Assembly (NCBI RefSeq): GCF_028389875.1
Contig: NC_084665.1
Coordinates: 3,472,001-3,536,000, forward strand
Direction: 5' to 3'
DNA: 64,000 nt
Source of the DNA: Rhea pennata
Taxonomy: Eukaryota; Chordata; Aves; Rheiformes; Rheidae
A program made the position numbers and the translations under genes. The notes under the pieces were generated by a model. The model did not search any database and had not been told where the DNA came from. It worked only from the letters and a program-made list of their open reading frames with translations. This document shows, one piece after another, positions 7,452 through 59,714 of this stretch (its first letter is position 1; each line of letters begins with the position of its first letter).

Positions 7452-7461
7452 CCATATAAGG
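7452..7461 (+). promoter_or_regulatory. SRF: SRF promoter CArG box 1 (CCATATAAGG)
   Basis: Exact match to the serum-response-factor consensus CC(A/T)6GG, 182 bp before the SRF ATG and 20 bp before a second perfect box, about two helical turns. Confidence 0.9.
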
Positions 7462-7471
7462 AGCGCCTTCG

Positions 7472-7481
7472 CCATAAAAGG
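7472..7481 (+). promoter_or_regulatory. SRF: SRF promoter CArG box 2 (CCATAAAAGG)
   Basis: Exact CC(A/T)6GG match, on the same DNA face as box 1. It is likely bound by SRF itself. Confidence 0.9.
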
Positions 7482-7633: not shown

Positions 7634-10600
7634 ATGCTGCCGAGCCAGGCCGGGGCCGGGAACGGCGCCGCCGCCGCACTGGCCCGCGGCTCGGCCTTGG
7701 GCCGGGCGCCGGTGCCTCGTGGGGCGAACGGCGGCGGGGCGGCGGCGGCGGGGCCGCCCGGCGGCCGCCTGGAGCGGGAGGCGCTCTACAGCGGCAGCGA
7801 GGGCGACTCGGAGTCGGCCGAGGAGGAGGAGCTGGGCGGCGAGCGGCGCGGCGTGAAGCGCGGCCTGGCCGAGGCGGCGGCGGCGGCGGCGGCAGGGCCG
7901 GCGGCGGGAGCGGCGGCGGCGGCCGGCTACAGCGGCGGCGGCGGCGGGGCCGTGAGCGGCGCCAAGCCCGGGAAGAAGACGCGCGGCCGGGTGAAGATCA
8001 AGATGGAGTTCATCGACAACAAGCTGCGGCGCTACACCACCTTCAGCAAGAGGAAGACCGGCATCATGAAGAAGGTGCGGGCCCGGGGGCACCGGCGGGG
8101 CCGGGGCGGGCCCGGAAACGGCGGCCGCTTCCCGCTCGCGGCACCTGGAGCCGAGCGCTGCGGGCGCCGCCGCCGCCGCGGGGCCCGCGGGCCCGGCCCG
8201 CCCCGGGGAGGCCCCGGGGGCGGAGGGCGCCGGGCGCAGCTCTCCGCGGCTGCCCTTTCCCGCCCGGGGTCCGACGGCGCTGGGGCCTTCCCGCGGCCCC
8301 CGGGAGCGGGGTGCCGCTCCACGCGGTTCGGATGCTCCCGGTGCTGCCGGCAGCCGGGGCTCGGCAGGTCGTTCCGTGCCGTCGGGCGCCGCTGCCTCCT
8401 GGCTGGAGCATCCTCCTGCGCGGCTGCTCAGGGCCGCATCCCGGCTTCGCCCGGCCTGGGAGAACTGGCATGGCCGGGGCAGGGGGGATGAGGCCGCCCT
8501 GTCCGTGGCAGCGCCGTGCGCCCGCTCACCCGGGACCTGTGGCGTGGCCGCCTGGCTGGGGCCGGGGTGGGGAGAAGGAGGGGGCTGAGATGCGGGCTGG
8601 CGGAGTAGCATCCTTTCAGCGGGCCCAGCAGAGAGGAGAGCAGCGAGGTATCCAGGTGTGTCTGGAGAGGTTGGTGGGATGTCCAGGACTGGCATAGCCC
8701 AATGCCCCTGTGTCCTCCTGGGAGTATTCAGAGGAGACTTTTTTTTTCCTGTGATCTCTCCCCTAAGGGATCACCCATCCCCTAAGGGTCTCCTGATGGA
8801 GATGGGAACACAGCATGGGATGCTTCAACCTCCAGGGTGCTCTTGGGCCAAAGCTCTTCCTGGGGCAACGGTCAGGGAGCTGGAGCTGGTGCGAGTGAAA
8901 GAGCTGTGGCAGGAGCATGGTGGCATGTTGGGGACTCTTGTCCTGCTGGCATATATGTCTCTGTTGTCCATGACTCCTGATTCTTCCCTTGTGCTCCTGG
9001 CAGGCCTATGAGCTTTCCACACTGACAGGCACCCAAGTCCTGTTGTTGGTGGCCAGCGAGACAGGCCACGTGTACACCTTTGCCACGCGGAAGCTGCAGC
9101 CCATGATCACCAGTGAGACGGGGAAAGCACTGATCCAGACATGTCTCAACTCCCCGGACTCGCCTCCGCGCTCGGACCCCACTACCGACCAGCGCATGAG
9201 CGCCACGGGCTTCGAGGAGACTGACCTCACCTACCAGGTGTCGGAGTCGGACAGCAGCGGGGAGACCAAGGTAACAGCCGTGCACCCAGGAGCGTGGCTG
9301 GGCTCCCTGGGGTGCTGCGGGCCTGCGTCAGGAGCCCTGAACATTTCCAACCCGCGCTGAGTAGTGGATTGGGAGACCGAGGATGGGTCTCCCCTTCTAC
9401 CGTGACTCCAGCAAGCTATTGCCGTGGCCTCCCAGGGTTGGCTTCTTGACTTGGCCGGCGGTGGCCGTGATTCAGGAAGGCAGCGAAGCGGGTGGCAGGT
9501 GTCCCAACCCTGACTTTTGCGGCGAGGCTCCCCCCAGCCCAGGCCACCCCCGGGCAGCTCCTGATGCTGTTATCTCTCCCTGGGTGTCTCCATGCTCTTG
9601 CACTCATTGATAAAAATTTGATTCTGCCTCCATGGCCTTATAAGGCCTGGTTTCCCTCGCCAGAGTCCCTGGCAGGGCCCCTCACATTCCTTATAAGCTG
9701 CAGCTGTCTCTTGCTTTGGTGCCGTTTTGGAAGGGGGCAGGGAGGACATGGGGAATGGAAACATTTGGCTGGACAGGCCGTTTCTGCTCCCTGCCTGGTG
9801 TCCCTGCAGACGCTTGCCTGGGTTACTCGTGGCCCTACTCCCTGGGTGCTGTGGAGGGCCTGCTGGTGGGTGCAACGGCCCCTTTCTGCTGAGGAAAGGA
9901 TCTGTTGTATCTTGGGGCAGGGGGTGCAGGTGGCCTTGCATGCCCGTGGGCTGATCCTGCGGGAAGGCTGGCTCTCTTGTGCCCCGCTGCTTCCTTTGCA
10001 GCTTGGTGCTTGGGTCTGCGGGTGCTAGAAGTTGGGAAGTTGGTGCTGCGAGGCTGGGATGGCGCTGCAAGCTGACGTTTGTGCTGCGGCTTCTGGGCGC
10101 TGTGTGGCGTGCAGCTGGGGTGCTGTGAGTTGCTGCAGCTCCGCTGGACCTGTACTCTTGGGCTGGGAATCGGACCTGTTGCAAAAGCGCCCTGCCAGGC
10201 TGGAGCTCTGGCCGGCTGTGCACGAGCCCTCGCGTAGCCACGGTAGCAGCCCTGCCCTGCGGTGGCCACTCAATGTGAAGCAAAGCGTTTGTCTCTGCGC
10301 TGTTGGCGGTGGTAAAGGCAGCGAGCGCAGCGCTGAGGCATGCCCCCGTGCATCGTGTCTGATGCTGCAGAGATGCTGAGATGCGTGTCTGCGTCCTGTG
10401 GCAGCCCAGCAGCTCTGGTTGTGTTGCTGCTAGGTGCATGGCAGCTGTGGTCTTTGCGTGCCAGCTTCCCAGTGTGTGTGTGCAGCGCTGCTCTGAGCAA
10501 AGCCTCGTTGCTGCTGAGCTCTGCAAAGCATAAGTTGTGCCAGAGGTCTCTGCAGGTGGAGGAACTGCTGCAGGCCAGGTTGTTGTGGGATAGATACCCC

Positions 10601-13600
10601 CACACCAGTTGGGTCCCTGGAAGGTTTCCCACTGATGGGAGCCCTACAGCAGTCCTGGTCTGGCCTAACTCCCTTGAGTGCCTCTGATTTCCAGCCTGAG
10701 CTGTGCCTACCCTTCCTAGTAGGCAAAGGAGCCTGTTGCCACCAGGGGTCTCTCCCTTGTGCAGCCCATGTTTGTAAGCACTTGGATTTGTCGGCTTCTC
10801 TTGGATGAAAAAGCAAACAAGCCCTCTGTGTGTCTTGTGATGAGACAGGTTGTCTGTGCCTGGAGTAACCTGGAGGTGCAGGAAGGGCTGCGCATGGCAG
10901 CTGACCTGTCCCTGCCGTGGTTTGTCCACAAGCTCTCTCTTAAATCTTCCCCTAGAAATGTCAACTGGCCCCAAAGGAAATGAGCTCCTGGGGCAGTTAC
11001 TCCTCAGAGGAGGTCTTCTAGACATAGTGTTTCTCCATCTACTTTCTGATGCAGGTGCTGCTTGGTGCCCTGCGGGCTCCATTTCTGGACTGGCAAGCTG
11101 TGATGCCTGCTGTGGGATGTGTGGTTGCACCTCGTGGCCATGGCCAGGATTTGATGTGGGACTGGAAGAGCCCTGTGGTTGCTATGAGGCTAAGAGCCCG
11201 GCCTGGTGCTCTAGTGGCGATCACCTCTGTTGAGACAAACCCAGGAGCCCTGTAAGGGCAAAGGGAGCCTGTGGGCGGGCCAGGCTACGTGGCTGGTGCT
11301 GAACTGGTAGGCCTTGCTCTGCTGAGGGGTGGGTGGTGTGCAGGGCTGGGCTATAGGTGCCGTGTCTGATGAGGTGACAGGGAGTTAAGTGTCTAGACTG
11401 CTTGTGTTGCAGCTGGGGCTGGGGAGCAGTGCTGTGAAGACAGCAGCTATGCTCTGACAGCAGTGCTGTTGTGCTCTGACCCACATGGTGTTTTTTGAAG
11501 GCCCCAAAGAAATGGCACCCATCAGTAATCCCTTCAATGCTGCTATGTGTGGGAGGGGATTTTAGAGAAAGCTCAAGAGCTTGGGACTGGAGTAAAAGCC
11601 CTCATCTGGTGACCTGCTTTGGGGAGGTGGGGCTCTCTGCCTGAGCTGGAACCTTAGGCAGGTGCTAGAGCCCAGGAAGGGTTCTCCCATGTACCACCAA
11701 GACTGATTCTCCTGTAATGCCCCTGTAATGATGCTGGCTGGTGGGCTTGGGACCTGCTCAGCAGCATCATCCCAGGCAGCCCCTGGGAGCCACAGTGCTG
11801 GAGCAGGATTGACTCATTCATGAAGAGAGGAACTGCCCAGGGTCCTGCTGCAGTACCTGGACTGGCCTGGGCCATGCTGTCTGGTCCCATCCTGTTGAGC
11901 ATTCATGGTGCTGTAGGCCTGGTATAGGCATCTCCCCTCGGTGTGTTGCACCCCTCTACAATGTTTCCCCTAGGCCTTGTTCTGCAAACCAGAGCTTGCA
12001 GTGAGATCTGGAGTTGGGCGGGTTGATATGCAGATGGACCAGCAAGGGGAGGGCCTTCAGGGCTTGCTCTGCTGCCTCAGATGTCCTTGCTCCCCCCTGC
12101 CCCAGGTGATCCTAGCTGGGGGTGGCCCATGGCTTTGCTGCAGAGGCTTGGATTCTGCTGCTGGCTGTCCCTGTGCACATGATCTGGGCTTTGCAGAGTG
12201 CTGGGGAGAGCCAAGGTGCCTGAGGCTTCTAGCCATCACAGTCTGGCTGTGGGAGGCAGTGGGGGTCTCATGCTGTGGGCTGTCCTACCTCCCTTCCTGT
12301 ACTGAGAGCTATCATTGCAGCCTAAGAGAAACGCAGTGGAGGAGGGAGGAACCTGGGTCTCACCTGGGGCACAGTGGGGGGGGGGGGACAGGATTGGAGC
12401 CTGCTGCTGTGGCCTTCTGCCCACGCAACTCTGCTTTTGTGACTGTGCTGGGATTTGCCCTTGTGTCCGCAAAGAGTCCTGATGATTCCCCAATGATGCC
12501 ATGGATCTTCTTAGGATGCCTCTTCCATCCCCAAGAGGATGTAGCAGCAGGGGATGCTGAGAGCCATGGCTGGTTGAGGACTCTGTTTCAGAGGCGTTCA
12601 GCTGCAGGGTTAGATGTGGAGATGAAGGAGCCAACTGAAAACATTGTGGGTCCTCCCTTGGGTGGGGGGTTCTGCCCTGTCACCTGGGTGGGGAGGATGC
12701 CCACAGCCTTCATGCCCTGTGTAGGATGGTGGGAGCCTGCGGTTGAGCTCATGGAAAGTGCATCTGCCTAGCTCTGCTCCGTTATCACGTGCCTTTTCTA
12801 ATTCGGACCACGAGGACTGTGGTGCCAAGGTGGAGGGGCTCTACTCTCCTCCTTCCCTGGGCCCTGGGGCAGGGCTGGGTGCCCAGGATTGGCTCTCCCT
12901 GTCCAAAATGGGCTGCCTTCCCTTTTTTAGCTGTTCGTTGAGCTGTGAATTCCTTGTTCCTGGCAGCTTGACAAGCTGGGAACAAGGCGTAGCACGTGGG
13001 AGACATGGGCCCACCAGCCTGCAGCGGGAGGGGTGGGAGCACAGCGTCCTTAACCCTTCCCAGGCGCGCTGGCGGCCATGGCAGGGCACGGGGACAGCAG
13101 ATCTTTGCGGCACATGCTCGGTGATAGCTTTTGGAACAGCGTCTTCACAATCCAGGCTAGCTGAGCAGGATGGGAGAAGGGCCATGGAGACCTCGAGTAT
13201 CCAAAAGAGGATCTGGGGGAAGGAGGCGTGTTAGGTGCAGCATAACTGCATGGGGCAATCGCAACCGTGCTGGGCTCACTTGGCTCCTGCAGATCCACAC
13301 CATGTCCTGCTGCATGCTTTGTAGCTGCAAAAACCAGGGCACTGGGTGCCCTGCATCCTCCTGCCTTAGTCCCAGACCCAGGAGAGCCCTGTTGCTCCTG
13401 GTGCCTGACTTTCCTGACGTTGCTGTCGTCAGCCTGGCATTGGCGCTCCTTGTAGGAGCATGGTGCACACTGGCTGTAGCTAACGTGTGGGATCCATTGG
13501 AAGCACTTGCATTGTGCCAGTCTCCTGCTAGTGGTCCGGATCCTTACTCTTGGCCATGCTCTCCCTTCTCTTTGGCTCTCGGAGCTTTGCAGAGGCACTG

Positions 13601-16600
13601 TGTTGCCTGGAACGTGCTAAAGAAGTTGTCAGGGCTGAGTTTGGGCCTCACTGGCATTTCTGGTGCTCGGAATCGGGTCCGACCCCTCTCCACCACCCTT
13701 TCCGTGTGTGGCTGACCGCTGTCTTCAACAGCCAGTTCTCAGCTTGCTCTTAGCCCTGTGTTCCCTGCTGTAAGGAATGTGGTGTGTATTCCTGAGAGAC
13801 GATGTTATGTGTGCCTTTGAGACTGTCCCTGCAAGGACTGCTCTTGCCTTTTGGGTGCCAAGGCTCTTCCCTTCTTACAGCCTAAGGTGACTCCTGGGTC
13901 CCTGGAGAGGGAAAGAGTTGCTCTGTCTCATGATGTCTTGTGAGGTTTCTCAGGGGACCTGTGCAGCCCTGGGCTTGCATCCAAGGTTGACACTGAGCTC
14001 TCTCCAGCTCTCCTGGTGCTGCGTTGTTGGGCACAGTCTCATCATGTTTGCTCAAGAGACTCTTCTCTGCTCCATTTGCTTGCAGTGGGCTATGGTTTGG
14101 CACAGAGTTGCAAACTATGGTGTCTAGCTTGGCTGTGTGGGCAGATGTTGACTGGACCAAGGACCTGGGCTGAGCTCTCACCATCTTGTCTCATCCCACA
14201 GGACACGCTGAAGCCGGCGTTTACCGTCACCAACCTGCCAGGAACAACGTCCACCATCCAGACAGCCCCCACCACCTCGACCTCCATGCAGGTCAGCAGC
14301 GGCCCCTCCTTTCCCATCACTAATTACCTGGCGCCTGTGTCTGCCAGCATCAGTCCCAATGCTGTCACAAGTGCCAACGGAACAGTGCTGAAGACTACCG
14401 GAGCCAGTGCGGTGACATCCGGGGGCCTCATGCAGATACCTACCGGCTTCACTCTCATGTCAGGTCAGTGTCTGTCAGGGCTGAGGACTGTGTCCGTCCG
14501 TCTCGTTACCTGGAGTGCATTGCTGCGCTCCCTGGGAGAGGAGGCCGAGTGGCTGGTGGAGGCAGAGTGGCTGCTGCTGTAGGGTGAAGCTGGCTGGGCT
14601 CTGTTGCTTGAGCCCAACCGAGCCAGAGGCTGGAGAAGGGACAAGTAGTGACTGTTTCCCCCAGGGCACTGTTAGCTGGCTCTGTTGCTGGGAATGACGT
14701 GATGGCAGAGAGCTGAGCTGGGACCCTAGGGCAGCACCAAGGAGCCGGGAGGGAGTGAAAAGAGCTGGTCGTGACGAAGCCTTTCTTTCTCCCTCCTTTC
14801 GGCAGGTGCTTCCCTTTCTCCGGGGACCCCTACCATTCCTTTCGCTCAGTTACAGCCGCACTCCCTGGCTCTTTCCAGCCAGCAGGGCCAGGCGGTTGCG
14901 GGTACGGCTGGACAGCTGCAGCAGGCACAGCAGACAGTCTTCCGCTTCCCTGCCAGAGCTGGAGGGCAGATCGTGTCGCTGACAGGTCAGCACTCGCTTC
15001 TCCTCCCCGTGCTTGAGGTGGGGGGATGGAGGTACCCCTAGGGGGGACCCAGGCTGGGTCCCAGGACCTAGCCAGAGAGCTGATCCCAGCAGAGGCAGGA
15101 GTATGGAGGAGGAAGAGTGCAAGGGGCCCTGGCTGCAGCCTTGGGGGGAGAGGTGGGGAGGCAAGAGCAGCATCTTAGAGGATACAAACTAAGGGGAGCA
15201 GCAGGTTGTCCGTCTTCTGCCCTCAGGTTTACCCTGGGTCTGATGAAAGTAGAGGAGACATGTTCACTGGTGGAGCCACACTAAGGCTGAGCTGTGCTGT
15301 TGGGAGGTGTGGCAGACAGAGACTCTGGGGATTCAGATGCCCAGTGAGTGTTGTTTTGCATGTTGGTATTTGGCTCTGAGCAGCTGCCCTTGCTTTTGGA
15401 TACAGATTTGCTGTCAGTTGCTAAACGATAGTGCAGGGGATGAGTTACGAGAGACCCAAAGCGATGGAAGGAAGTGTCATTGTGCTGTCTTGTGCGCATC
15501 ATCCCTTGTAGGAATTCCTCGTTGTGCCAAGTTGAGGCCGCGCAGATGTTGTGCTAGGGCTTGGCGTGTTCCCAGCTGTGGTTTCAGACCGCAGGGCTAG
15601 GCTTTCCTTCGTGGGGGAAGCTGTGACATGGGTACCATGAGACAGCGTATCTCATGTCCTGCCTGTTTGTGCCTAAGACGATGAGTCTGCTGGCCTGTGT
15701 GCTTTCCTGGGGCCTTCAAAGAAGCAGGTGGACAGCGTGGTCCTGCACAAGGGAAGCTGGGTTTCCCTTGTGATCCTCAGGAGCTATGGGGATAATGAAT
15801 GTGTGTCTTTGGTATGGTGAGTGGGCAGATGCCCAGCCTGGGTGAACTGGCCTTGTCTCTGCTCTGCGGTGTCCCTTGCTCTTCTCTCCTAAGCCTGAGC
15901 GTGGAGGTAGTGGAGCCCTGCTGGCCTAGGTATTTGGGCACACAGTTTTTGTGATGCTGTTAGCTGATCTTTGCCTAACAACAAAGTTCTGTTCTGCTTG
16001 GCAGAACATGGGGAGCACTGGGGGTTCATGCTAGTCCTCTTCTGGCACGCCAGGTCTTCTGTGCTGTGCCCTAATGGATCCAGGAGTGGTGAGAAGGTCC
16101 CACATATCCCTGAACTATGCCTGGGAGCTGGAGAAAAACTGCTGTGGCCTTTATTTCCCAGGAAAGAGCCCTGCAGGCCAGCCAGCCCTTCCTTGGCTGC
16201 TGTGTGTCAGCAAAGGCCAGGTTTTAAGGCAGGGCCTTATTTCTGCCACGTGCTGCCCTTGGTTGCCCTTCCCCAGTGCAGGGCAGAGTCAGGCTGCAGA
16301 GCTCTGCGTGGCCTGAATGGGACTGGGGTGGGTAGTGTGGCGGGGTGTCTGCATGCCCTGCGCAAGCCCAGAGCACCCATGTTGGTCTTCAGGCTCCAGG
16401 GCTCCTTTCTTTCCCCAGGTGGTACCATGGCGCAGCAGGTCCCAGTCCAGGCGATCCAGGTGCACCAGGCACCGCAGCAGACGTCCCCCTCTAGTGACAG
16501 CAGCACTGACCTTACCCAGACCTCTTCCAGTGGAACAGGTAATCAGTACACTATCGTAACTGTATTCTCTCTTCCTTCCTAACTGCTGCTGCTAACAACC

Positions 16601-18599
16601 TCCCCTGACAGACTTTTTGTCTGCTCCTTGCCCATGACTCTTCTCAGTCCAGTTCTATCTCAGCTTTTCTGACAGCTTCTTGGGGGTTATTTATCCCCAG
16701 ATTCATGTGTCTGGAAACAGTCCTCCTGTTCCCAGCCCCTGGGGCTGGCTGTGCTACATCTAGATAGATGTTGCTGGGCATAGGGCATCTCACGTGGAGT
16801 TGCTGAGCTTCTACAGATCTGTCACCTGCTCTTATTTGCAGCATGTAGCTAGGGAACAGGCTGCTGTAGTCTTCCCAGTTCCCAGCTGATTTCTTGGGGC
16901 AATGCTCGCTCACTTAGCCCTTAGCACAAGGCATTGTCTCATGTCCACTTGGTTTTTACTGTACATGCAGAGGACAACTCTGCCGTCAGCAAAATCCAAG
17001 TTCAGGTGCCCAGATGTGGACTGAACTGAGTTCAACAGCTTTATTAAAGCATCATTAGGAAACATATCTTGGGTTGAATTAGATTCTGGGATATTGGCTA
17101 CCATGCCTTTCCTTCCTCTCATCCTCACTGACACAGGGAGAGGTTTGAGCTCTCTTGCCCTTTGCCTTGGGTTTTTCCCTGGGAGTTTGGGAGAACAAGA
17201 CTGGTGTTTCTGTGTCCCTGCTGATCCAGGGCACTCTGCCAGAGGACTCCTGGAGCTGGCTGTGCCACCCCTTTGCGGGGGAGAAGGGGCGGGGGGCACG
17301 TAGTAGCTGAGGGAGAGATGCTGAGCAGCCTCCTTTCCTGTGGCTTATGTGTGTCTTGGTGTCAGTGACCCTCCCGGCAACCATCATGACGTCGTCTGTG
17401 CCAACCACTGTGGGTGGCCACATGATGTACCCCAGCCCACATGCGGTGATGTACGCGCCCACGTCTGGCCTCACGGATGGTGGACTCGCAGTCCTCAACG
17501 CTTTCTCACAGGCGCCTTCGGCAATGCAGGTGTCCCACAGCCAGGTCCAGGATCAGGGTAAGCTGTGTGGGGTGATGCTCCCCTACGTACTCTGGCACCT
17601 CCCTTTTGTCTTCCTCACAAATACGAATGTTACATTTTTATTCTGAAGGGATTTCTCCTAAGTGGTCTTAGCTGTGCCATGCAAGGCCTGGCAAGGGTGG
17701 TGCTTGACATGTGCTTTTAGATCTCCCGTCGTTCTCTGTGCAAGGGATTTCTTTCACCATTTGCTAGCGAAAATGTGAGGGTTGCCTGTGGGGTGGGATA
17801 CAGGAGAGGCAGCAGAGAGAGCTGGGGGAGCAGCCCTGCTGGCTGCTCTGGAAAGGGTATGTGGCTGCGTGAGAGGATGAAGCAGAATGAAGCCTTGCAG
17901 GTGACACTTGGATGGGGGCTTATGCCTCTTTCTCGCAGCATTTGGAAAAACAGTGCACGTGGCTTTCACCTGGGATGCCTTAGCGCATGCAAACAGACAC
18001 CTTCATCCTTGTGAAGCTTCACAGAGCTGAGAGGAAGGGCTCAGGAAAGGACCCGTAGGGGAGCGCCACTTAGGGGACATGTCATTCCTGCTTTCCCTCT
18101 GTCCCTGGCAGGTGGTGTCCCCCAAGTGTTCTTGACAGCTCCATCAGGCACTGTTCAGATCCCGGTCTCAGCTGTCCAGCTTCACCAGGTAAGCGTAGAG
18201 GGCTGCTTGCAGGTGTTGAGGGTGTCCTCGCTCCCCTCACGAGGAAGTGTTGAGCCTGCTCTGTCCCTGCTTGCAGGTCCTTTGCAGGTCCTTTGCAGGT
18301 CCAAGCAGACCTGAGCACATGGGTACGGCCGGTCCTCAGGTCTCTGAGAGCTGGGAATGCTGCCTATTCCACCTGCCTCTGGGCCTGGAGGTTTTGTCCT
18401 CCTTGACTGGGTGCCCAGGAGGGATGGTGCCACCCCAGCTGCTGCTGTGTCTGATCTGAGGGCATGCCGTCCCCCAATGCTCGCTCCTCCCTTCTCTCTC
18501 TAGATGGCTGTCATCGGGCAGCAGAGCAGCAGTGGCAGCAGCCTGACGGAGCTGCAGGTGGTCAACTTGGACACCTCACATGGCGCCAAGAGTGACTGA
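7634..18599 (+). CDS. SRF: SRF, serum response factor (complete)
   Basis: Nuclear MADS-box transcription factor that binds CArG boxes as a dimer with MRTF or TCF cofactors. Eight exons join without a frame break: 7634-8074, 9004-9270, 14202-14463, 14806-14985, 16419-16538, 17366-17557, 18112-18188 and 18504-18599 (TGA 18597-18599). That is 544 residues, or 484 without the fourth exon; human is 508. The start MLPSQAG matches the family and is the first in-frame ATG. The N-terminus has an acidic Ser-rich patch (YSGSEGDSESAEEEELG) and Ala/Gly tracts. The MADS core spans about residues 114-200 (GRVKIKMEFIDNKLRRYTTF..), split by the 929-bp intron 1 after GIMKK. Exons 3-8 encode the Q/S/T-rich transactivation domain, ending ELQVVNLD. 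The 192-bp exon at 17366 equals the mammalian exon 5 that is skipped in SRF-delta5. The exon at 14806-14985 is unusual (see separate entry). Confidence 0.97.
8075..9003 (+). other. SRF: SRF intron 1
   Basis: GT..AG intron of 929 bp (donor AAG|GTGCGG, acceptor CAG|GCCTATGAG) within the MADS-domain coding region. The first half continues the CpG island. No other feature is recognised. Confidence 0.9.
9271..14201 (+). other. SRF: SRF intron 2
   Basis: A 4.9-kb intron, the longest in this SRF gene. Apart from the CArG/MCAT/E-box cluster at 9636-9757, no exon, RNA gene or repeat family is recognised. Frames here lack family resemblance. Confidence 0.8.
9636..9757 (+). promoter_or_regulatory. SRF: Candidate intronic SRF enhancer: CArG, MCAT, E-box cluster
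   Basis: Within about 120 bp: a perfect palindromic CArG box CCTTATAAGG (9636-9645); an MCAT/TEAD motif CATTCCT (9685-9691) overlapping a one-mismatch CArG CCTTATAAGC (9689-9698); an E-box CAGCTG (9701-9706); and a second TEAD-type GGAATG (9752-9757). CArG, MCAT and E-box motifs typically combine in cardiac and smooth-muscle enhancers. Motif presence is seen directly. Enhancer function and autoregulation are inferred. Confidence 0.55.
14806..14985 (+). CDS. SRF: SRF additional 60-codon exon (phase 1-1)
   Basis: Bounded by acceptor CTTTCGGCAG and donor ACAG|GTCAGC, with a pyrimidine-rich tract before it. It is exactly 180 bp, enters and leaves in phase 1, and has no stop. The peptide continues the style of the SRF activation domain: SLSPGTPTIPFAQLQPHSLA near its start, a Q-rich LQQAQQ and then VFRFPA near its end. 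In mammalian SRF as I remember it, FTLMPG runs directly into GAVAQQ with no such block. Skipping it keeps the frame (484 residues). It could be constitutive in this lineage, a cassette exon, or an ancestral exon lost in mammals. Confidence 0.7.
14986..16418 (+). other. SRF: SRF intron after the additional exon
   Basis: GT..AG intron of 1.43 kb. Frames inside lack resemblance to SRF or other families. No repeat is recognised. Confidence 0.8.
16539..17365 (+). other. SRF: SRF intron before the exon 5 homologue
   Basis: GT..AG intron of 827 bp directly before the 192-bp exon that is alternatively skipped in mammals. Nothing else is recognised. Confidence 0.8.
17558..18111 (+). other. SRF: SRF intron after the exon 5 homologue
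   Basis: GT..AG intron of 554 bp. No further feature is seen. Confidence 0.8.
18271..18302. repeat. 11-bp direct repeat, three copies
   Basis: TTTGCAGGTCC repeats head to tail about three times (first copy one base short) in the last SRF intron. Each unit contains a CAG|GT. Confidence 0.85.
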
Positions 18600-25205: not shown

Positions 25206-26339
25206 GTGAGTATGGATCTCCAGGGAATTCCGGCTTTCCCCTTGCCCTGGCCTCTTTGAGTGTGCCTAGTATCATCTTTGAATGGAGTCTCCTTTTCAGT
25301 TGTGTGTGGATAGACAATTTCCTACATGGAATGACTTTTCTTTTTTTTCCTTAAAAAAAGACCTATTACTTCAGCTGAGCAGCATGTCTCTTCATTGCTT
25401 CTCTTGCCTAGGTGTGTAAGTGACCACGAGAGGGCCTGCTTGTATATCTCCATTACAATCTGTGTGGGCTCTTCTGGGATACTACTTTTCTTATCAGACT
25501 CTGGTCTGATGTGCTGAAGTTGGCCAGTTAGGTGCAGTATTGTCTGCAGTTGACCAGCTAACTACTGGCACCCAGTCTTGGACAACCAGTTATTTCAAGC
25601 TTGCCTTTGCATAAATGAAGCAGAGAAGTGTCACAGCTTCTTCTCTGTAGCCCCAAGATATGTAGCACAATCAAACAACAAAGAGCAGCAGCTCCTCACT
25701 TTGGTGAGTTTGCCTGTTGACTAGACTTTTTAAAGGCAAAAAATATTTGAGAGAAGACCAGGAAGGGAATACTGAGCGACTTTTAGATAGTGATGTGATG
25801 GATATGAGCTAGACCTGAGAAATTGCTAGTTATTTTCTTCACACACTGGTGTCTCCTGCTGGGTTCTGCAGTGAGAGAGAGTCTCTGGCTGAACCTTTGA
25901 GCCCTGGGAGACTTTGCAGTCTGAATAGACATGTGAATGTTAAATGGTGGGAGAGAAAAGAGAAGCTAGAAAGCAGCAGCTTCCGCAGTGTTGTGCCATA
26001 GTCAGTGGCAGAGAAGTGAGCAGGATGCAGTTCTTGGGTTTTTATTTACTGTCTTATGAAGGGGATTTGAATGTGCTCTTTTTGCCTCTGGGGGTTTCAC
26101 AGGGAGAGCCTATCTCTGTGTGTGCCAGTAACGCTGGGCACAGGGTTTGTGTGTGAAACACTTCCTCGTTATTTCTGAGGGGGACACAAGCTTCTGTGAA
26201 GTGAGGTTTCCTTTGGGACTTTATTCTGGGTGCAGGATCACAGGATCAAAATCTGTGCCTCAGCCAGCACTTGCTCAGACTCTCCCTGGCACGATGCTTG
26301 AGGTTGAGCACCCGCTTCTCCTTCCCCCCGTCCCCGCAG
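25206..26339 (+). other. CUL9: CUL9 5' intron
   Basis: DNA between the candidate 5' exon and the first coding exon. The acceptor CCCCGCAG ends at 26339. No repeat or other gene is recognised. Confidence 0.55.
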
Positions 26340-26353
26340 GCCCCTTTGCTGTC

Positions 26354-29300
26354 ATGGTGAGCGAGAGGCGGAACGGCAGCCTGCTGGTGCACCTGGGACC
26401 CACGCTGCAGGCCTACCCGGAGGAGCTGCTGCGGCAGCGGCGAGGCCGCGATGGCCGCTCCGAGTACCTGATCCGGTGGAGCGTAGTCAGCTCGGAGGAG
26501 AGCGTGGCCAGCGGTGGCGGCCCCGGCGCAGAAAGCAAGCCGGAGAACATCCTAATGTGGATGTCGGCAGAAGAGGTCTGCGCCAGCTGCCCGGTGCTGC
26601 TGGGCCAGAGGAAGCTGGGCGGGCGGTGGGTGAAAGAGGAGACGGCGCCCAGCCCGTTCCCGGCCGACATCCCGCTGGACGAAGCGTCGCTGCTGGAGAT
26701 GAAGGCTGACGTCGGGAGCCTGGTGCAGCGAGCTGCCCGGCAGATGGCCGGGACCGGGGCTCCCGAGTCCTCCGTCCTCAACACCATCCACGTGCTGAGC
26801 GCGTACGCCAGCATTGGCTCGCTGACGGGCGCCTTCAAGGAGACGGGAGCCCTCGACCTGCTGATGAAGATGCTGTGCCACAAGGAGAAGCAAATCCGCC
26901 GCAGCGCCGGCAAGATGCTGAGGGCGCTGGCTTCGCACGACGCAGGTGGGGGTGCCACCGGCCGCCGAGCGGCGCCGGTCCTTCTGCAGGCCTGGGACGT
27001 CCGAGAAACGGAGCCTCTTGGGGCTGGTTGGCGAAGGGGGAGAAGGAGCCTGAGCTCCGCAAGCGGCTGCCGTGTCGTAGTCGTCTGGGGCGCTCCAAGA
27101 GCAGGCGGGTTTGGGAGCTCTTTTCCCTGGTGGGTTCCCGAGAGCTGGGACGCTGATGAGCTGTTTGGAGGTGGCCCGCTGGTCGCAGGCGGGTGGCAGA
27201 GCGTCAGGAGGGCTCTGCTGCGCGCCGCCGACCGGAGAGGCTCTGGCCTGCTCTTGGCACGGAGCCCCTTCTCAGGCCGTGGTGAGCAGAAGCAGCCTCA
27301 GCTGCTCCTCAGTCGCTCTCTGCGTTTGACAGGAGCTGGCAAGGCTCAGAAGTCCTTAACGTGGCTTGGGTGCACCTGGTAGGAGCCTCTGGGCCAGCGG
27401 GGGTGGTGACGTGTCCAGCTCGAGCTGAGTGACTTTCCCTGCTGCAGTGCCAAAGCTCGTGGTGCAGACGGGGGGCTGGCGCAGGTCAAGGCAGACAGTT
27501 TTTCTTGCCTGACCCCGCTGTTCCGGAGTCAGTTATTCGGAGTGTCTGTTTTGGGGGGAATCTCAGAGCTTTAGATGTGGAAAAACCGCGGTTTTATTTA
27601 GCAGAGCAAAATGTTGCCAATTGAGATCAAGGGACAAAGTGCTGTTCTAGGTGATGCTGAACAGCAAAGCAAGTTGTTTCTTGTTTGCCAAAGTCTGTCC
27701 GCCACAGTTGGGTGGTGTGAGGGGTATCTCTGGGGATCAGAGGGGTCACTGTTGTTTCTGCAGGGAGCCGGGCCTACGTCCTGCTGTCCCTGAGCCAGCA
27801 GGATGGCATCGAGCAGCACATGGACTTTGACAGCCGCTACACCTTGCTGGAGCTGTTTGCTGAGACGATGTCCTCTGAAGAGTACTGCATGTCCTTTGAA
27901 GGGATTCACCTTCCCCAGGTAGCAGCAGGGCCTGTCAGCCTGGGCACGGGGAGCCCCAGGTCTGAGGCCTTTGGGGGGCCAGGAGGGGAGCGAGTGGGTG
28001 CCAGGGCCCTCGTCCTCCTTGCTGGGGACAAGGGAAGGTGGCTGGTGACGAGCAGGACCGGGCGTCGGGAGAGCCGGCCGAGGGCCTGGGCATGGCGTGA
28101 GGCCGAGGGCCGGCGGAGAGCCGGTGAGGAGCCTCGTGTCTGGGCAGGGAGGCGAGGGCAGGCGGAGAGGGCTGGGCTGCTGCCCGCTGGTGCGAGGCCG
28201 TGCCGGGAGCCTGCCTGGAGACGAGCTGGCGGTGCGGAGCGAGCCGGAGACGCCGCGGTGGCTGGGCTGTGACAGCTGTGCCTCTTGCAGATCCCTGGGA
28301 AGCTGCTGTTCGCCCTGGTGAAGCGCTACCTGCGTGTGGCCTCTCTTGAGGACGAGCTCAGCGGCGGTGTGGAGCAGGGAGGGGAGGCGCAGGACCGTGC
28401 CGTGCCCGGCTCGCTGGGCGGGGAGAGGAGCCGCGTGAAGCAGGAGTTTGAGTTCAGCATGGCCATGGCAGGCCTCATCTCAGAGCTGGTGCACGTGATG
28501 GGCTGGGAGCACAGGCACAAGCCGGAGCCGCCGTCCCCGCGGGGGACGCAGCCTCGTGCCGCCCGCTCCATCTTCCAGCCCAAGGCCCCGGCCTGCCCTG
28601 CTGCTCAGGCAAGCCCTGCTCCCCGACCAAAAGAGCCCAGCGCCTTCAAAACGCGCTCAGCCTTCCCAAGCCGTAGCAGCTACGTGGAGTACGTGCAGGC
28701 GAACCTGGTGCGTGGCATGCGGGTGCGTATGCTGGAGGACTGTGGTGAAGTGAGAGCCGGGGACGAAGGCGAGTTTTGCCAGAGCACTGACGGCACGCAC
28801 GCGGTGCAGGTAGGTCACTGCCAGAGGTAGCCTGGCCGGGGCGGCAGAGGGGGCAGTAACGGGTGACTGTTCGGTCTTTTGCTAATCACATCTTCACACT
28901 CTAGAAGTTGGACAGTAAATATAATTTTGACTCTGGCTACAACAATCCTAGCAAAGAAGACAGCCCTCAGAGCCAGAGGGTAGGATCCTGGCTTGAGCTG
29001 GTTTGGCTTAGTCCAGTTTGTCCTGCTAAGATTGTTTGAGCCTCCAGAACAGGTGATTACATCCCACCTCCTAGCCCTGGCCTGTGTTCAATCTTGGAGG
29101 TGGTTTGGGAGCGGGCTAGCTCACAAGTAAGTAATGCAGCAAGAGATGCTCTAGGGTGTTAAGCAAGCCTTGGCATCTGAGTGGCAGTACTTATTCTGCT
29201 GAGTCTGGACACAGCCTACCCAGCTGTGTCTTTTGATTTGTAAGTAGATGCCAGGGTCTGTTTCCCCCCTTGGAAATGTGCTTTGGAACATCAAATTTTG

Positions 29301-35300: not shown

Positions 35301-38300
35301 GCCCTTCTGCGTGCGGCTCGCGCAGCTTTGCCGTGCGGTGCGACCACGGCCGTCACAGCTGGTGTGGGGCCGCAGCGGGTCCGAGAGGGTTAACTCGGTG
35401 CCGTGCGCCCAGCTGTCGGAGCTGGATGAAGAAGGCCTGATCCAGCTGTCGGCGTCTGCGGAGCTGGCCCAGAAAGTGCTGCGGGCGTTGGAGAAGCGGT
35501 GCCAGGGCAGCGCTCTGAGCGACCTCCGCGGCTCCCGCGTCTATGCCAAGTACTTCCTCGGCAAGGGGGCTGAGCAGGGCGGCAGGGGGAGCGCCGTGGC
35601 GTCCTCGGGGGGCGCCAGCCCCGAAGCCGCGGTGGCCGAGGTGGCAGAAGAAGACCTCCCTGCGGCAGCGCTGCCGCCTGGAGCCCCCGCCACAGTGGAG
35701 AAGTCGGATCGCCAGCTGTTCAGCGAGCTGCTGCAGAGGGAAGGGCTGCGTTTCCCAGAGGTGACGGAGGAGCAGAGCAAACGTAAGTGCCTGCTGTGGG
35801 CCGGGGCACCTGTGGTGCCAGGTGGCTGCGTTGCCCCAGCAGAGGGAGGCTGCGGGCTGGGTGCAGGAGGCCCGGAGGTGCCCTGGGCAGGGGCAGGCCC
35901 GTGGGGGCCGGGGCGGGGGGTGCTGGCAGGCAGCGGCGGCGCTGACGCCCGCGTCTCGGCCTCTCGCCCCCTCCCAGTGTTGGGCAGCTGCAAGGGGGCT
36001 GGCAAGAGGGGCTTGCTGGCGAGGATCGCGGCCGTGGTGGATGCGATGCAGAGGAGCGGCTCCGAGGCGGGTCTGCGCCTGGCCGGGCTCCAGCACATCC
36101 TGGAGATGCTGGAGGAGGAGGCTGGGCTTGAGCGGCAAGTTGGCAAAGCCCAGGGCGGGCTGGGGACCAGGTGGGTGGCGTGCGCCACGGGGGTGCTGCC
36201 GGGCCGGGCCGGGGCCGGCTGGGGGAGGGCTTTGTCCCCGGGGAGGGGGCTGGTGGCAGAGCTGGGAATGTGGGGAGGGGGCGGTGGAGGCGCGACGGCA
36301 GGTGCGTTGCAACGCGGGCGCCAGCAGGGCGGGCGGAGGCCGCGTCCGCGAGGCCCAGCTGGGTCCCTCCCGGGGGCTACCGTGAGCGTGGCAGAGCCGC
36401 ACGGGCGGGGGGAGGCAGCTGGTGAGGCCGGGGTGGTGGCGGCGCTGGTGGCCCCTGCCGAGGTGCCCTTGCCCGTGCAGGGAGAAGGTGGTGAAGATGG
36501 CGGTGGAGTTGCTGAGCAGCGAGGTGGCGGAGAAGGCGCTGGTGGCGCTGGCGCTGCGGCTGCTTGCCGCGCTCATGCTCAAGTTCGAGTGGCGCGTGCC
36601 GTTCGCCGCGGAGGGGGGCGTGCGGGCCGTGCTGGCCCGCATGCGGCAGCACGCGGCCTCCGCCGTGGTGCAGCAGGCCGGCCTGGCGGTGAGTGCAGCG
36701 CGGCACGGCCGGGGAGGAGGCTGGCGCTGGGCGCTGCCCGCGGCCTGTGCGACCTGCCGGCGGCCCTGCAGGCGCTGAAGGTGCTGGTGGGCGCCAGGAG
36801 CGGCGAGCCGGGTGGTGCCACTGGGCAGCCGTCGCCGCTGAGCCAGGCCGACGCGCAGATGATGCGGGAGATCTTTGCCAGCATCGGCTCCGCCTCTGGC
36901 GAGGGCTCGGCGAGCCTGCTGAGCGCCATCCCCGCGGCCACAAGCACCATGCAGAGGGTCGCAGGGTAGGGGCAGGGTGTGGCCGGCGGCGCGGGGGTGG
37001 CCGGCCGCCCTGGGAGCGGGGGGAGGCTCGGGGCGAGGAGGAGGAAGGTGCCGACGTCGCCCCGTCCCCGCAGGGGCTCCTCGGGCGTGCGGAACGGCTT
37101 GCTGGTGGTGAACATGCTGCTCGAGGGCCACCGGGGCCTGGCGGAGCAGCTGGTGAGCTGCGAGCTGCCCGCGGTGCTGCGGAGCTGCTGGCGGGACGGG
37201 CAGGGCGCGGGCTGCCCCGGCAGGAGCCTGGCGCTGAGCGCCATCAACCGCCTGGCGGAGCATGAGGCACCGCGGAGCCTGGAGGCGGCAGGTAGCGAGC
37301 GCCGCGGGCCGCGCCGGGGCCAGCGGGCGCGGGGGGGCTGGGCTGGGCCGGGCCGGGGAAGGGGCCGCGCGGGCAGCGCTGGAGCTGATGGCTCGTGTCA
37401 TCCCTGCCGCGGCAGGTGCCGAGGCCCCGCCGGAGCCGGGGGACGTGGACGTGCGGATGCTGGTGGGCGGCGCACGGGAAGGCGGCCTCTCGGCGGAGGC
37501 GGTGGTGGCCCTGGAGCGGCACCTCTGTGGCGAGGGCGCCATGCGCTCCGGCGAGGCGGCCCGGCTGCTGCGGGACCGCGAGTGCTTCGCGCTGCTGCTG
37601 CGCAGCTTCAAGCTGCTGGGCACGGAGAAGGCTGCGAGCCTGAGCATCCTCAGGTGGGTCCGGGGATGGCCGGCGGGGCCGGGCGGGTGCTGGGCAGCGC
37701 GTGCGGGGGGCCCACGGCGCCTGGGGAAGCCCTGGCTTTCGGCCCCGCGGGCGTCCCGGTGGGGCAGGGCAGCGGGTCCATGCACCCTGGCCCCGGCGGA
37801 GCTGCTGCCTTGCTCAGGATCCTGAACGAGTTCCTGGACGGCGGCCAGGAGGAGCTGCTGCCCTGGCACGAGTGCGTGGAGCCCTGCCTGTCCTCCATGG
37901 GCGCCCACAGCAGCGACCAGGAGGTGAGGGGGCCCCGGGCCGGGGGGCTCTGCCGGCCACGCGGGGGCTGCGGGGCCGGGGCTCCACCCGCCTTGACCCC
38001 CGCCTCGCCACGGCAGCCGCGGAGGCGGGAGGCGGCGGCCGCGTCCTTCGGGCAGGGTGCCGGCGCGGTGCCTGGCCAGGCCGGCGCGTGCGCCGCTGGG
38101 GCCGGGGGGGCCAGAGCGCGGCAGCGCGGCCCGGCCGGGCCCTGGCGGTTTCCCGGCAGCGGCCTGGCTGGGCCCCGGCGGCCCCTCGCTCGGCAGGTGG
38201 TCCGGGAGGTCGTGCGCTTCCTGCACCGCCTGGGCAGCACCAGCAAGGACTGCGTGGTGGTGATGTGCCGCGCGGGTGCCCACGAGGCTCTGGGCAGAGC

Positions 38301-38598
38301 TCTGGAGAGGCACAGGGCGGCGCTGCCGCTGGCGCCGGCCCTGTGCGACCTGCTGAGCGGCTGCGAGAAGCACGCCAGCCTCTACGGGAAGCTGACGGGC
38401 AGCATCTTGGCGGGCTGCATCCAGGTGGGCCGGGGGCGCCGGCGGGGCCTGGCTGCGCCGGAGCCTGCGCCCACGGTCCCCGGTAACGGCCCGTCCGCGT
38501 CGCCCAGCTGGTGCTGGGGCAGATCGAGGAGCACCGCCGGAGCCAGCAGCCCATCAGCATCCCCTTCTTCGACGTCTTTCTGCGCAACCTGTGCCGAG
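26354..38598 (+). CDS. CUL9: CUL9 exons 1-14: N-terminal, CPH and helical-repeat region
   Basis: Residues 1 to about 1147. The N-terminus ([42 protein letters not shown]) matches the CUL7/CUL9 family. The CPH domain, a Tudor-like p53-binding module, runs from about residue 392 ([19 protein letters not shown]) across the exon 3/4 junction to [14 protein letters not shown] near 445. Exons 5-14 encode leucine-rich helical repeats ([46 protein letters not shown]). Exon 4 sits alone in a 5.9-kb AT-rich stretch. Exons 6-14 are GC-saturated with introns down to 83 bp. Confidence 0.93.
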
Positions 38599-41500
38599 GT
38601 GAGCGCGGGGCGCCACGCTCCCGGTCCTGGTCCTGGTCCCTGCTGGCCTGGCGGCTGGAGGCTCTGCGGCCTCTTCCGGCAGGCTCCAGTGTGGAGGTGA
38701 AGGAGGACAAGTGCTGGGAGAAGATTCAGGTCTCCTCCAACCCCCACCGCGCCGGCAAGCTCACGGACGGGAACCCCAAGACCTACTGGGAGTCGAACGG
38801 CAGCACCGGCTCCCACTCCATCACCGTGCACATGCAGCGTGGCGTGGTGATCAGGTGGGGCTGGGCGCGGGGGGCTGGAGCGGCCCGCGAGGCCGGCCGG
38901 GGCGCAGGCCGAGGGCCAGCAGGGCCAGCGCCGGTGGGTTGCGCCCGGCAGCGACGCGGCTGCCGCCCCGCAGGGAGCTGAGCATGCTGGTGGCCGGCGA
39001 GGACTCCAGCTACATGCCGGCCCGCGTCGTGGTGCTGGGGGGAGACGGCCCCATGGCCGCCAACGCCGTGCTCAACGCGGTGAGTGCGACCCGCGCTCCT
39101 CGGGCCGCGGCCGCGCGGCGGGAGCCGCCGGCTGGCACCTGCTGGGCCCAGCAAGGGGCTCATGGCTGGGCTGGAGGCTGGGGGCACCGGAGGCCCCGGG
39201 GCGTGTGCATGGCTGGCCCCGGCTGCGCAGCGTGCTGAGGGCCTGCCGTCTGCCCGCAGGTGACCGTCCTGCCCTCCGACAGCAGAGTGGTCCTGCTGGA
39301 GAACGTGCCCCGCTTCTGGCCCGTCGTGCAGATCCGCGTGAAGCGGTGCCAGCAGGCAGGGAGAGGGGGGAGGACGGGGCCCGGCCGCGCGGGCTCTGCC
39401 CTGGGGCCCCACGCGAGGCGCTGAGGGCCGCGCTCTCCCCCAGGGCGGCATCGACACACGCGTGCGTGGCATCGAGGTGCTGGGCCCCAAGCCCACCTTC
39501 TGGCCGGTCTTCAGGGAGCAGCTCTGCCGGCGGACGGCCCTCTTCTGCGCCGCCCGGGCTCACGCGTGGTGCCGGGAGATCGGCCGGGACCGGGGGCGCC
39601 TGCTGCAGCTCTTCGGCAGGTGAGGTCTCTTCTGGCGGCCCTGCCCGGCGCGCCAGGGTGGCCCCAGGGGAGCGGCTGGGTGCCCCGCGCGGGCAGGGGG
39701 CCCTCGCCGCCCCCGGGTGGGTGCCTGGCCGCGTCGTGCCCGGTCCGCTCTCTGCCGCAGGCTGAACCGGGCGCTGCGGCACGAGCAGGCCTTTGCCGAC
39801 CGCTTCCTTCCCGACGCCGAGGCGGCCCAGGCGCTGGGCAGGACGTACTGGGAGGCCTTGGTGACCCCTCTGGTGCAGAGCATCACCAGCCCAGGTAGCC
39901 TGCGCTTGCCCGGGTCCCTTGCCGCCCAGCGGCAGCCCCGGGCAGCCCGCTGCGAGTCTCTGGCCTTGCAGACCCCAGCGGCGTCAGCCCCCTGGCCTGG
40001 CTGCTCAGCGAGTACCTGGAGCGCGCGGAGCTGCCGCGCCGTGCCGCCGCCTTCGGCTCCCGCGTGCGGCGCCTCACCCGGCTCCTGGTGCACGTGGAGC
40101 CCAGCGGCGCGGAGCTGGAGGAGGCGAGAGCCCCCGGCAGAGCCGGTGAGCGAGGAGGGGGTCTTCCCTCCCGTGGGGCCGCGGGGGCCTCTGGGGAAGG
40201 TGCTGAGGCAGGGGAGGTGTCCGGAGCTGGGGGTGGCCCGCAGCCGTCCGCCAGGGCCACTGTGCCTCCCGTCCCGCGGAGCGCACCCCGCTCAGCCCTG
40301 GGCTTGTGCCCTGGCAGGGGGGAAGGACGGGAAGAGCAAGGAGGTGCCAGCCAGGGCCATCAAGGCGGTGGTGACGGCAGAGCGGAGCAGCCTGTGGGGC
40401 ATCTCGCGGTGCTGGCGTGGGTTGGTGCAGCAGCAGGTAGGGCCAGGAGGGGCCGCGGTGGCCGCCCCGGGCAGGCAGGGCGGGAGCAGGGCTCGGCGGG
40501 GGCCCCGCGGGGGCTGGAGGAGTGTGGGGGCAGCCATCCACATGCTGGTGGCTCTGCTGTCCTCCCGGCTCGGGGTCGCTCCGTTCCCGCTGGGTTCGGC
40601 TCTCTGGCGGCTCCCCGCCCTCAGCCCAGCCCCGGTGCTGGGGCGCTCAGGGGCTGCTTGTTTCTCTCCGGCCGCCTCTGCCTTTCTTGTCCCACTGCGT
40701 GCAGCCCTCGCCCAGCTCTGCTGCCCCTCCGCAAGCTCTCAGCAGCCCGAGGCGCTGGCAAGGCCGCGGCCAGGCCAGCCGGAGCCCCGCACGGTTGGCA
40801 CGGCGGAGCGAGGGCTGGGGCCGCGGGCAGCGCCGCGGAGACGGTCCCGCTCCGGGTTTGGGCCTCCCACGCCGTGTCCCGCAGGTGTGGCGGTTCCTTG
40901 AGGCAGCGTGGCAGGCGCCGGACGTCGTGGAGCGGTTCTGCAGGCTGTACCGGCGGCTGCGCGGTGCCACGGCCGAGCTCTTTGGGCAGCAGGCCGCCTT
41001 CATGCTGGCCCTGGTGCAGGGCTTTGCGGGGGCCCTGCTGCAGCTTTCCTTCCCGACTGCCCTGCACGTGAGTCTGAGGAGGGCTGGGGCATGCAGGGCT
41101 CTGCTGCGGTCCCTGTCCCACCCCACCCCACCCGCCCGCCGGGCCACGGAGCCCTGCTGCAGCCCCGGGCGCTCCCCGGCCCCGCTCCCCGGCTGCTGCC
41201 TGCCCGGGGCTGGTGCCGGGGACGCGCCCAGGCACCGCGCGAAGGCCCGGGGCTCCCTGCCTGCCCCCCGCTGGAGCACGGTGGGCTGCCCCTGCCCTGC
41301 CGTGCCACGGCGAGCCGCGTCTGCAGCCAGCCTCGTCCCTCCGCAGGTGAGCGAGCAGTTTGCCCGCTACCTCGACCAGCGGCTGCGGGAGCTGCGCGGG
41401 GTCGGGGGCGGCGCGGGGCCGTTGCAGCAGGCCCTGGAGCCCTTCGCCGTCTTGTGCGGCCTGGAGCTCGCCCACACCTTCGAGCACTTCTACCGGTGAG

Positions 41501-58046: not shown

Positions 58047-58162
58047 CCCAGGAGCCATGGGAAGAGGAGGGACTCTGGAGAGCCAGAGGCGCCTGGGTGC
58101 CAGTGGGGAATTGGAAGCCTGAGCCCTGCAGTAGGGGCAACAGATGGGGTTATGGCCCTAAA

Positions 58163-58197
58163 TTTTTTTTTTTTTTTTTTTTTGGGGGGGGGGGGGG
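58163..58197. repeat. T21-G14 homopolymer junction
   Basis: Twenty-one T followed directly by fourteen G, about 70 bases before the CR1 element. Confidence 0.85.
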
Positions 58198-58269
58198 AAG
58201 GGGGGAGGCTCCCAGGGCAGCGGAAGGCATGAGGTTTTGGGCCTGAAAACAGAGACTTGGGGATGTCAG

Positions 58270-59714
58270 GTGCACTCACTGCCTGAGAACTGGAAGAAGG
58301 CTGCCAATGTCACACCAATCTTCAGAAAGGGCAAGAAGGACTCAGGAAACTACAGGCCGGTCAGCCTCACCTCCAGCCCTGGAAAGGGCATGGAACAACT
58401 CATCCCAAATGTCATCTCCAAGTATATCGAGGAAAAGAAGGTGATCAGCAGCAGTCAGCATGGATTCACAAAGAGGAAATCCTGCTTAACCAATCTGAGA
58501 GCCGTCGCTGATGGAGTGACTGGCTGGGTGGATGAGGGGAGAGCAGTGGACATTGTGTCCCTTGACTTCTGCAAGGCTTTTGACACTGTCTCCCCTAACA
58601 TCCTCCTAGAGAAGCTCAGGCAGTGTGCGTTAGACGAGTGGATAGTGAGGAGGCTTGCGAACTGGCTGAATGGCAGAGCTCAGAGGGTCGTCATCAGTGG
58701 CGTGGAGTCTAGTTGGAGGCCCGTGGCTAGTGGAGTCCCCCAGGGGTCAGCACCGGCTCCCATCCTGTTCAAAACTTCTTCATCAAAGAAAGACCTGGAT
58801 GAGGGGACAGAGTGCCTCCGCAGCAAGGTTGCTGATGCTACCAAGCTGGGAGGAGTGGCTGACACACCTGAGGGCTGTGCTGCCATTCAGAGAGACCTGG
58901 ACAGGCTGGACAGCTGGGCAGAGAGGAACCTCCTGAGGTTCAACAAGGGCAAGTGCAGGGTCCTGCACCTAGGGAGGAATAACTCCATGCACCAGTACAA
59001 GCTGGGGGCTGACCTTGTGGAGAGCAGCTCTGCAGAGGAGGACCTGGGAGTGCTGGTGGATGACAAGTTGACCATGAGGCATCAATGTGCCCTTGTGGCC
59101 AGGAAGGCCAATGGTCTCCTGGGCGGCATTAGGAGGAGTGTTGCCAGCAGGTGGAGGGAGGTGATCCTGCCCCTCTACTCAGCCCTGAGGAGGCCTCATC
59201 TCGAGTCCTTTGTCCACTTCTGGGTTCTCCAGGACAAGAGAGACATGGAGCTACTGCAGAGAGTCCAGCGTAGGGCTACACAGATGCTCAGAGGGCTGGA
59301 GCACCTGCCCTATGAGGAACGGCTGCGAAAGCTGGGCCTCTTCAGCCTGGGGAAGAGAAGACTGAGGGGGAAACGTTACCAATGTGTACATTGGTACCTG
59401 AAGGGAGGGTGTCATGGGGACGGGGACAAACTCTTTTCAGTTCTCCCGTGTGACAGGAGGAGAGGCAATGGGCAGAAATTGAAGCACAGGAAGTTCTGCC
59501 TGAACGTGAGGGGGAATTTCTTCCCTGTGAGAGTGACGGAGCACTGGACCAGGTTGCCCAGAGAGGTTGTGGAGTCTCCTTCTCTGCGGACATTCAAAGC
59601 CTGCCTGGATGCAACCCTGTCTGACATGATCTAGGTGGCCCTGCTTGAGTAGGAAGGTTGGACTGGATGATCTTCAGAGGTCCCTTCCAACCTCAACCGT
59701 TCTCTGATTCTGTG
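58270..59714 (+). mobile_element. CR1 LINE, 5'-truncated, with long open frame
   Basis: CR1 retrotransposon covering part of the reverse transcriptase to the 3' end. An uninterrupted frame of 465 codons ends at TAG 59632-59634. RT landmarks: FRKGKKDSGNYRPVSL, LDFCKAFDTVS, GVPQGS, then conserved post-RT blocks ([53 protein letters not shown]). The catalytic FADD box reads VADA (58828-58839), and the endonuclease and ORF1 are missing, so the copy cannot move. The 3' tail has the CR1 hairpin-like GGATGATCTTCAGAGG and a terminal ATTCTGTG (59707-59714). The frame before about 58270 is not CR1. Confidence 0.92.

Follow-up and report, generated by a model that had tools for sequence, protein, structure and literature searches.

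A candidate additional exon in the activation-domain region of a non-mammalian SRF gene

Introduction

Serum response factor (SRF) acts as a master regulator of genes for muscle, the cytoskeleton and the growth response. The human gene is described as having seven exons and encoding 508 amino acids, and its published isoforms comprise the full-length form together with delta5, delta4,5 and delta3,4,5 forms (PMC9185982). According to the same source, a delta3 form runs into a premature stop, and splicing within the activation domain is known to alter the activity of SRF.

Alternative exons that act on activation domains have been described in other transcription factors. The nearest proven parallel that we can name to the case considered here is NF-YA, in which the alternative exon 3 lengthens a glutamine-rich activation domain by 28 residues and leaves DNA binding unaffected (PMC5852603); mouse C2C12 cells that have only the short form of NF-YA fail to differentiate (PMC7140862). 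MEF2, like SRF a MADS-box factor, is credited in the title of a cited reference with an alternative acidic exon in its activation domain that is spliced alternatively in striated muscle and brain.

Here we analyze a 64-kb stretch of DNA, hereafter the window, that contains a complete SRF coding region. Within its third intron lies a 180-bp block, designated X, that we consider likely to be a genuine SRF coding exon included in at least some transcripts, given its sequence, frame, splice signals, residue composition and resemblance to an SRF motif.

Results and discussion

The SRF gene model

The SRF coding region lies on the + strand and was modelled from translation and splice frame as eight coding blocks including X, with AG/GT at the internal borders of all eight. 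The coding part of exon 1 (7634..8074, +) provides the ATG, the N-terminus and the first part of the MADS box, and exon 2 (9004..9270, +; 267 bp) encodes the remainder of the MADS core. Exon 3 (14202..14463, +; 262 bp) begins in phase 0 and ends in phase 1. It is followed by X (14806..14985, +; 180 bp), exon 4 (16419..16538, +; 120 bp) and exon 5 (17366..17557, +; 192 bp), the last being the exon skipped in published delta5 forms; X and exons 4 and 5 each start and end in phase 1. Exon 6 (18112..18188, +; 77 bp) and the coding part of exon 7 up to the TGA stop (18504..18599, +) complete the model. The conceptual product has 544 amino acids with X and 484 without it, ending in a single terminal stop either way. 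Exon 2 aligned with PDB entry 1k6o_B, a serum response factor chain, with 64 of 64 residues identical, and the MADS core of the window scored 31.4 bits against the Pfam SRF-TF cut-off of 26.

Subtraction of the coordinates quoted in PMC12385735 gives 267, 262, 120, 192 and 77 bp for human exons 2–6. All five sizes are found exactly in the window, so the gene model around X is secure. By the same quoted coordinates, human intron 3 measures 580 bp and has no listed exon; intron 3 of the window measures 1955 bp and has X inside it. Between exons 2 and 6, X is the sole difference in exon number from the human list as quoted there. A preliminary description of this DNA, which had proposed X as an extra exon, gave the mammalian gene seven exons and took the extra exon to be missing from it. 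Both points agree, for human SRF, with the exon number given in PMC9185982 and with the exon coordinates quoted in PMC12385735.

Downstream of SRF we found a CUL7/CUL9-type coding sequence, probably CUL9 (26132-28827, +), with the Pfam families CUL7_CUL9_N and Cul7 detected between 26.1 and 28.8 kb at E-values of 4.5e-40 and 8.8e-14, respectively. In the human genome, CUL9 follows SRF as well. The locus resembles mammalian SRF, as far as the exon coordinates and isoforms quoted for the latter extend, in the sizes of exons 2–6, in its downstream CUL7/CUL9-type gene and in having activation-domain exons that can be skipped in frame. It differs in that X would enlarge the activation domain, which the known isoforms listed in PMC9185982 shorten.

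Two perfect CArG boxes (CCWWWWWWGG), at 7452-7461 and 7472-7481, lie upstream of the SRF start codon at a distance of less than 200 bp, and a third is found at 9636-9645 in intron 2. Such a placement would be expected if SRF regulated its own gene. The whole window has six perfect CArG boxes against 3.4 expected, a total reached in 14 of 100 shuffles and therefore unremarkable, so that their position alone is notable.

Frame and splice signals of X

Block X, at 14806-14985 within intron 3, is bounded by AG and GT, is phase 1 at both ends and lacks a stop in the SRF frame. We could thereby reproduce its coordinates, length, borders, phase and absence of an SRF-frame stop as they had been reported in the preliminary description. 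One of the two remaining frames has a stop and the other is open as well, so openness by itself says little. The 59 whole codons of X read ASLSPGTPTIPFAQLQPHSLALSSQQGQAVAGTAGQLQQAQQTVFRFPARAGGQIVSLT, with 11 Q, 9 A, 6 S, 6 L, 6 G, 5 P and 5 T and neither C nor W. In the window, X is flanked by FTLMSG on the exon 3 side and by GTMAQQ on the exon 4 side. The junction FTLMPG/GAVAQQ that had been quoted earlier refers to mammalian SRF, and the window has its own variants of both flanks.

Splice sites were scored with tables that, like the codon tables used below, are approximate. The polypyrimidine tract and acceptor of X (14786..14805, +) reached 9.7 bits, the best of 683 AG sites within the six SRF introns, a set that excludes 25 bases at the intron ends and so omits the known acceptors. 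The donor, CAG/GTCAGC (14983..14991, +; ACAG/GTCAGC with the preceding base), has a disfavoured C at +3 and reached 2.47 bits. Seven SRF donors were scored, and this one is the weakest, with 3.3 to 6.96 bits for the other six; still, no more than 17 of 569 intronic GT sites reach its score, that of X being counted among the 17. Of the "good acceptor and donor" claimed originally, the acceptor is upheld and the donor needs correction. Intron 3 also contains the RBFOX-type hexamer TGCATG twice, at 15357 and 16350, against about 0.5 expected per 1955 random bases by an arithmetic estimate.

Because X, like exons 4 and 5, is phase 1 at both ends, its inclusion or skipping would leave the frame undisturbed, and any combination of skips among the three exons stays in frame. 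Exon 3, by contrast, runs from phase 0 to phase 1, so its skipping breaks the frame, which fits the premature stop described for the delta3 form in PMC9185982. X thus sits in an exon block already used for SRF isoforms, exons 4 and 5 being among those skipped in the forms listed in that source. If X is real, its weak donor and its place in this block of skippable exons make a cassette exon somewhat more probable than a constitutive one. Moreover, the combination of a very strong acceptor with a weak donor leads us to expect partial, tissue-dependent inclusion.

We also weighed a constitutive eighth coding exon, by which SRF in this lineage would always have a longer activation domain. This is a sub-case of a real exon and overlaps with our preferred explanation. 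It would account for the very strong acceptor and for the SRF-like composition of X described below, and the donor of exon 3, GTCAGT, likewise has C at +3. That X has the weakest donor in the gene, however, and lies among symmetric exons subject to alternative splicing in mammals, as far as the isoforms in PMC9185982 show, speaks against invariable inclusion, and we regard a constitutive exon as a tentative possibility.

Chance expectation and residue composition

Candidate exons in the six SRF introns were defined as frame-preserving, open blocks of 60–300 bp with an acceptor of at least 4 bits and a donor of at least 1.5 bits. Three were above threshold, namely X, with a splice-plus-codon sum of 6.87, and the blocks at 16005-16088 (0.1) and 11974-12105 (-3.5). 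As a null, we made 300 dinucleotide shuffles of the SRF introns with X cut out. A frame-preserving exon matching the splice-plus-codon sum of X appeared in 36 of the 300 shuffles over all six introns, and intron 3 by itself provided one in 9 of 300. A stricter requirement, that the acceptor come within 1 bit of X, the donor within 0.5 bit and the codon score be about as good, was satisfied in 4 of 300 shuffles. By splice-plus-codon measures alone, X is suggestive and not proven.

These shuffles are what would speak for X being an unused pseudo-exon that arose by chance in intron 3 and happens to be open with good borders, as would the weak codon-usage signal of X and the human exon list quoted in PMC12385735, which has no exon there. 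Residue composition is more telling than the splice-plus-codon score. We trained a composition score on SRF exons 3–7 without X (245 residues); X obtained +12.8 bits in the SRF frame, and its other two frames obtained -69.9 (stop ignored) and -30.5. Among open frames of the SRF introns, none of the 1749 on the + strand reached the composition score of X (highest, -16.2), and one of 4252 did when both strands were taken, counts drawn from overlapping windows that are therefore not independent trials. The likeness to neighbouring exons in Q/P/S-rich composition, noted in the preliminary description, is thus borne out. A second background set came from a further 7.0 kb and 12.8 kb of the window, both unannotated and read on both strands (38,894 positions). 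There, the composition score of X was attained by 28 of 4047 open frames, from windows overlapping in the same way. No open frame of either background set combined 11 or more Q with an absence of C and W. For X to be an unused pseudo-exon, the best acceptor, SRF-like residues and an SRF-like motif would all have to coincide in one correct frame, and we consider this unlikely.

Codon usage

In a general codon-usage score, X obtained -0.09 per codon against +0.006 to +0.336 in the six other exons tested, a level that 5.1% of open intronic frames reach. When the score was trained on SRF itself (370 codons from the other exons), X had a total of -1.5, which 28 of the 1749 open intronic frames equalled or exceeded; leave-one-out totals of the six other SRF exons ranged from -1.8 to +36.9. 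GC by codon position in X is 0.69/0.56/0.64, with no third-position peak, unlike most of its neighbours, although exon 6 is without such a peak too. X thus has the look of an activation-domain peptide, whereas its likeness to well-used codons is not strong.

If intron sequence had been exonised in this lineage only, with low-level use and no conservation, its codon usage and third-position GC could well appear less settled than those of most other exons, as they do in X. The residues and motif of X, however, resemble those of the SRF activation domain. Furthermore, X had no match elsewhere in the 64 kb at E 0.01 or better, and an exact-or-near search with one 27-base piece of X returned only itself, so there is no sign of a local repeat. 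We judge exonisation of this kind to be improbable. Loss of an old exon on the way to mammals would explain an SRF-like peptide more readily than recent exonisation would.

Internal motif and duplication tests

Exon 4 and exon 6/7 have a common motif, VPVQAIQVHQAP in the former and IPVSAVQLHQMA in the latter, which 1 of 2000 shuffles aligned as well. The stretch IPFAQLQPHSLA in X (14835..14870, +) resembles both. Scored against the mean of the two source motifs, IPFAQLQPHSLA ranked 8th when all six frames of the 64 kb were scanned in open windows of 12 residues (89,945 in total); the source motifs took the first two places, and five unrelated windows scored above or level with it. Residue shuffles of X scored as well in 36 of 5000 cases. 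As the motif had been spotted before it was tested, following an alignment of X with the remaining C-terminal region, the resemblance is to be discounted. A second possible resemblance, between VFRFPARAGGQI and the exon 6 stretch VFLTAPSGTVQI, was rejected: in an ungapped comparison the best window of X lay elsewhere, and 4643 of 5000 shuffles equalled the score.

Aligned with the rest of the SRF C-terminal region, X was matched by 86 of 1000 shuffles, and against a hand-picked 35-residue stretch spanning exons 5–7 by 20 of 1000. At the DNA level, an in-frame match between X and exon 4 was equalled by 7 of 1000 codon shuffles and by none of 534 noncoding pieces. The DNA match to exon 6 was equalled by 10 of 1000 codon shuffles and is out of codon register, so CAG/CTG-rich sequence alone can give such matches. 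Gapped protein alignments of X with each SRF exon gave no significant result (exon 6 did best, equalled by 164 of 2000 shuffles; exon 4 was equalled by 1625 of 2000), and exon duplication is therefore not claimed. An origin of X as a partial copy of exon 4 or exon 6, usable in the place of exon 4, is thus very improbable in spite of its motif, the hand-picked stretch and the exon 4 DNA match, and tandem exon duplication was rejected as unsupported by the gapped protein alignments and DNA matches taken together, despite single comparisons leaning towards it.

Homology and literature searches

Searches of X against viral contigs, PDB (up to E 10) and Pfam yielded no useful homologue. The sole Pfam row, DUF4774, had E 0.07 and, with 13.4 bits, fell short of its cut-off of 25, and was rejected; Rfam gave nothing at the gathering threshold. 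Probes from SRF itself, exon 3 against viral contigs and exon 2 against genome and viral contig collections, found no SRF gene. With no vertebrate SRF recovered from those nucleotide collections, the absence of X there is uninformative. The literature searched, as titles and abstract openings among the matches listed and mostly outside subscription papers, contained no description of an extra SRF exon. Automatic genome annotation may already contain X.

Predicted consequences and age of X

We infer that X is probably included in mRNA and, as a coding exon, would insert 60 residues rich in Gln, Pro, Ser and Ala, with spaced hydrophobics, between exons 3 and 4 of the activation domain. The inserted part would bring a further stretch of the [IV]P[VF]xx[ILV]QxH type, as already present in exons 4 and 6/7. 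By eye, X adds one S-Q and two S/T-P pairs, and the segment it encodes may be disordered. Inclusion would probably shift activation strength or co-activator preference, with DNA binding and the MADS core untouched, by analogy with exon 3 of NF-YA. That exon likewise extends a Q-rich activation domain by alternative splicing; the gene is unrelated, the addition is 28 rather than 60 residues, and its effect has been demonstrated experimentally (PMC5852603), whereas that of X is a prediction. The alternative acidic exon of MEF2, so far as the title of its reference goes, is similar as an alternatively spliced activation-domain exon of a MADS-box factor and dissimilar in being acidic, where X is Q/P/S-rich, and in its location. 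The original proposal of an eighth exon enlarging the transactivation domain can accordingly be kept in a guarded form, as a frame-preserving and probably coding block in the activation-domain region that is absent from the human exon list quoted in PMC12385735.

A broader reading, which we offer as speculation, is that non-mammalian vertebrate SRF has an ancestral, regulated activation-domain exon that was lost in mammals, the seven-exon form being the reduced one. Birds or reptiles might then adjust the output of SRF through an added module that bears the motif, and not solely through dominant-negative skipping. Exons 2–7 with X would here encode 397 residues, more than the 375 amino acids of the published chicken SRF record. 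Xenopus SRF, at 448 amino acids, would with X have about 51 residues left for exon 1. If these lengths are right, some non-mammalian SRF is without X, and a cassette exon or one of narrow distribution is then favoured. Should X be used, the activation-domain content of SRF would differ between vertebrate lineages, and this would bear on the transfer of work in chick and other non-mammalian species to human. As a class of event, exon gain, exon loss or a cassette, X would be ordinary if real.

Other features of the window

Beyond SRF and its CUL7/CUL9-type neighbour, the window has a 490-aa open frame at 58162-59634 (+) that encodes a reverse transcriptase domain of the non-LTR type (RVT_1, 1.9e-19), whose solved relatives among the matches listed include R2 and LINE-1 proteins. 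A diverged copy of this element, with 65% identity, lies at 46372-47257, and pieces on the opposite strand lie at 55-56 kb. An 8-kb region at 36001-44000 has 72-76% GC, and each of its strands holds very long open frames, reaching 1066 aa; the two longest had no Pfam match at E 0.01. Finally, a 38-bp unit is repeated 2.2 times with 100% identity at 44463-44546, probably through a recent duplication.
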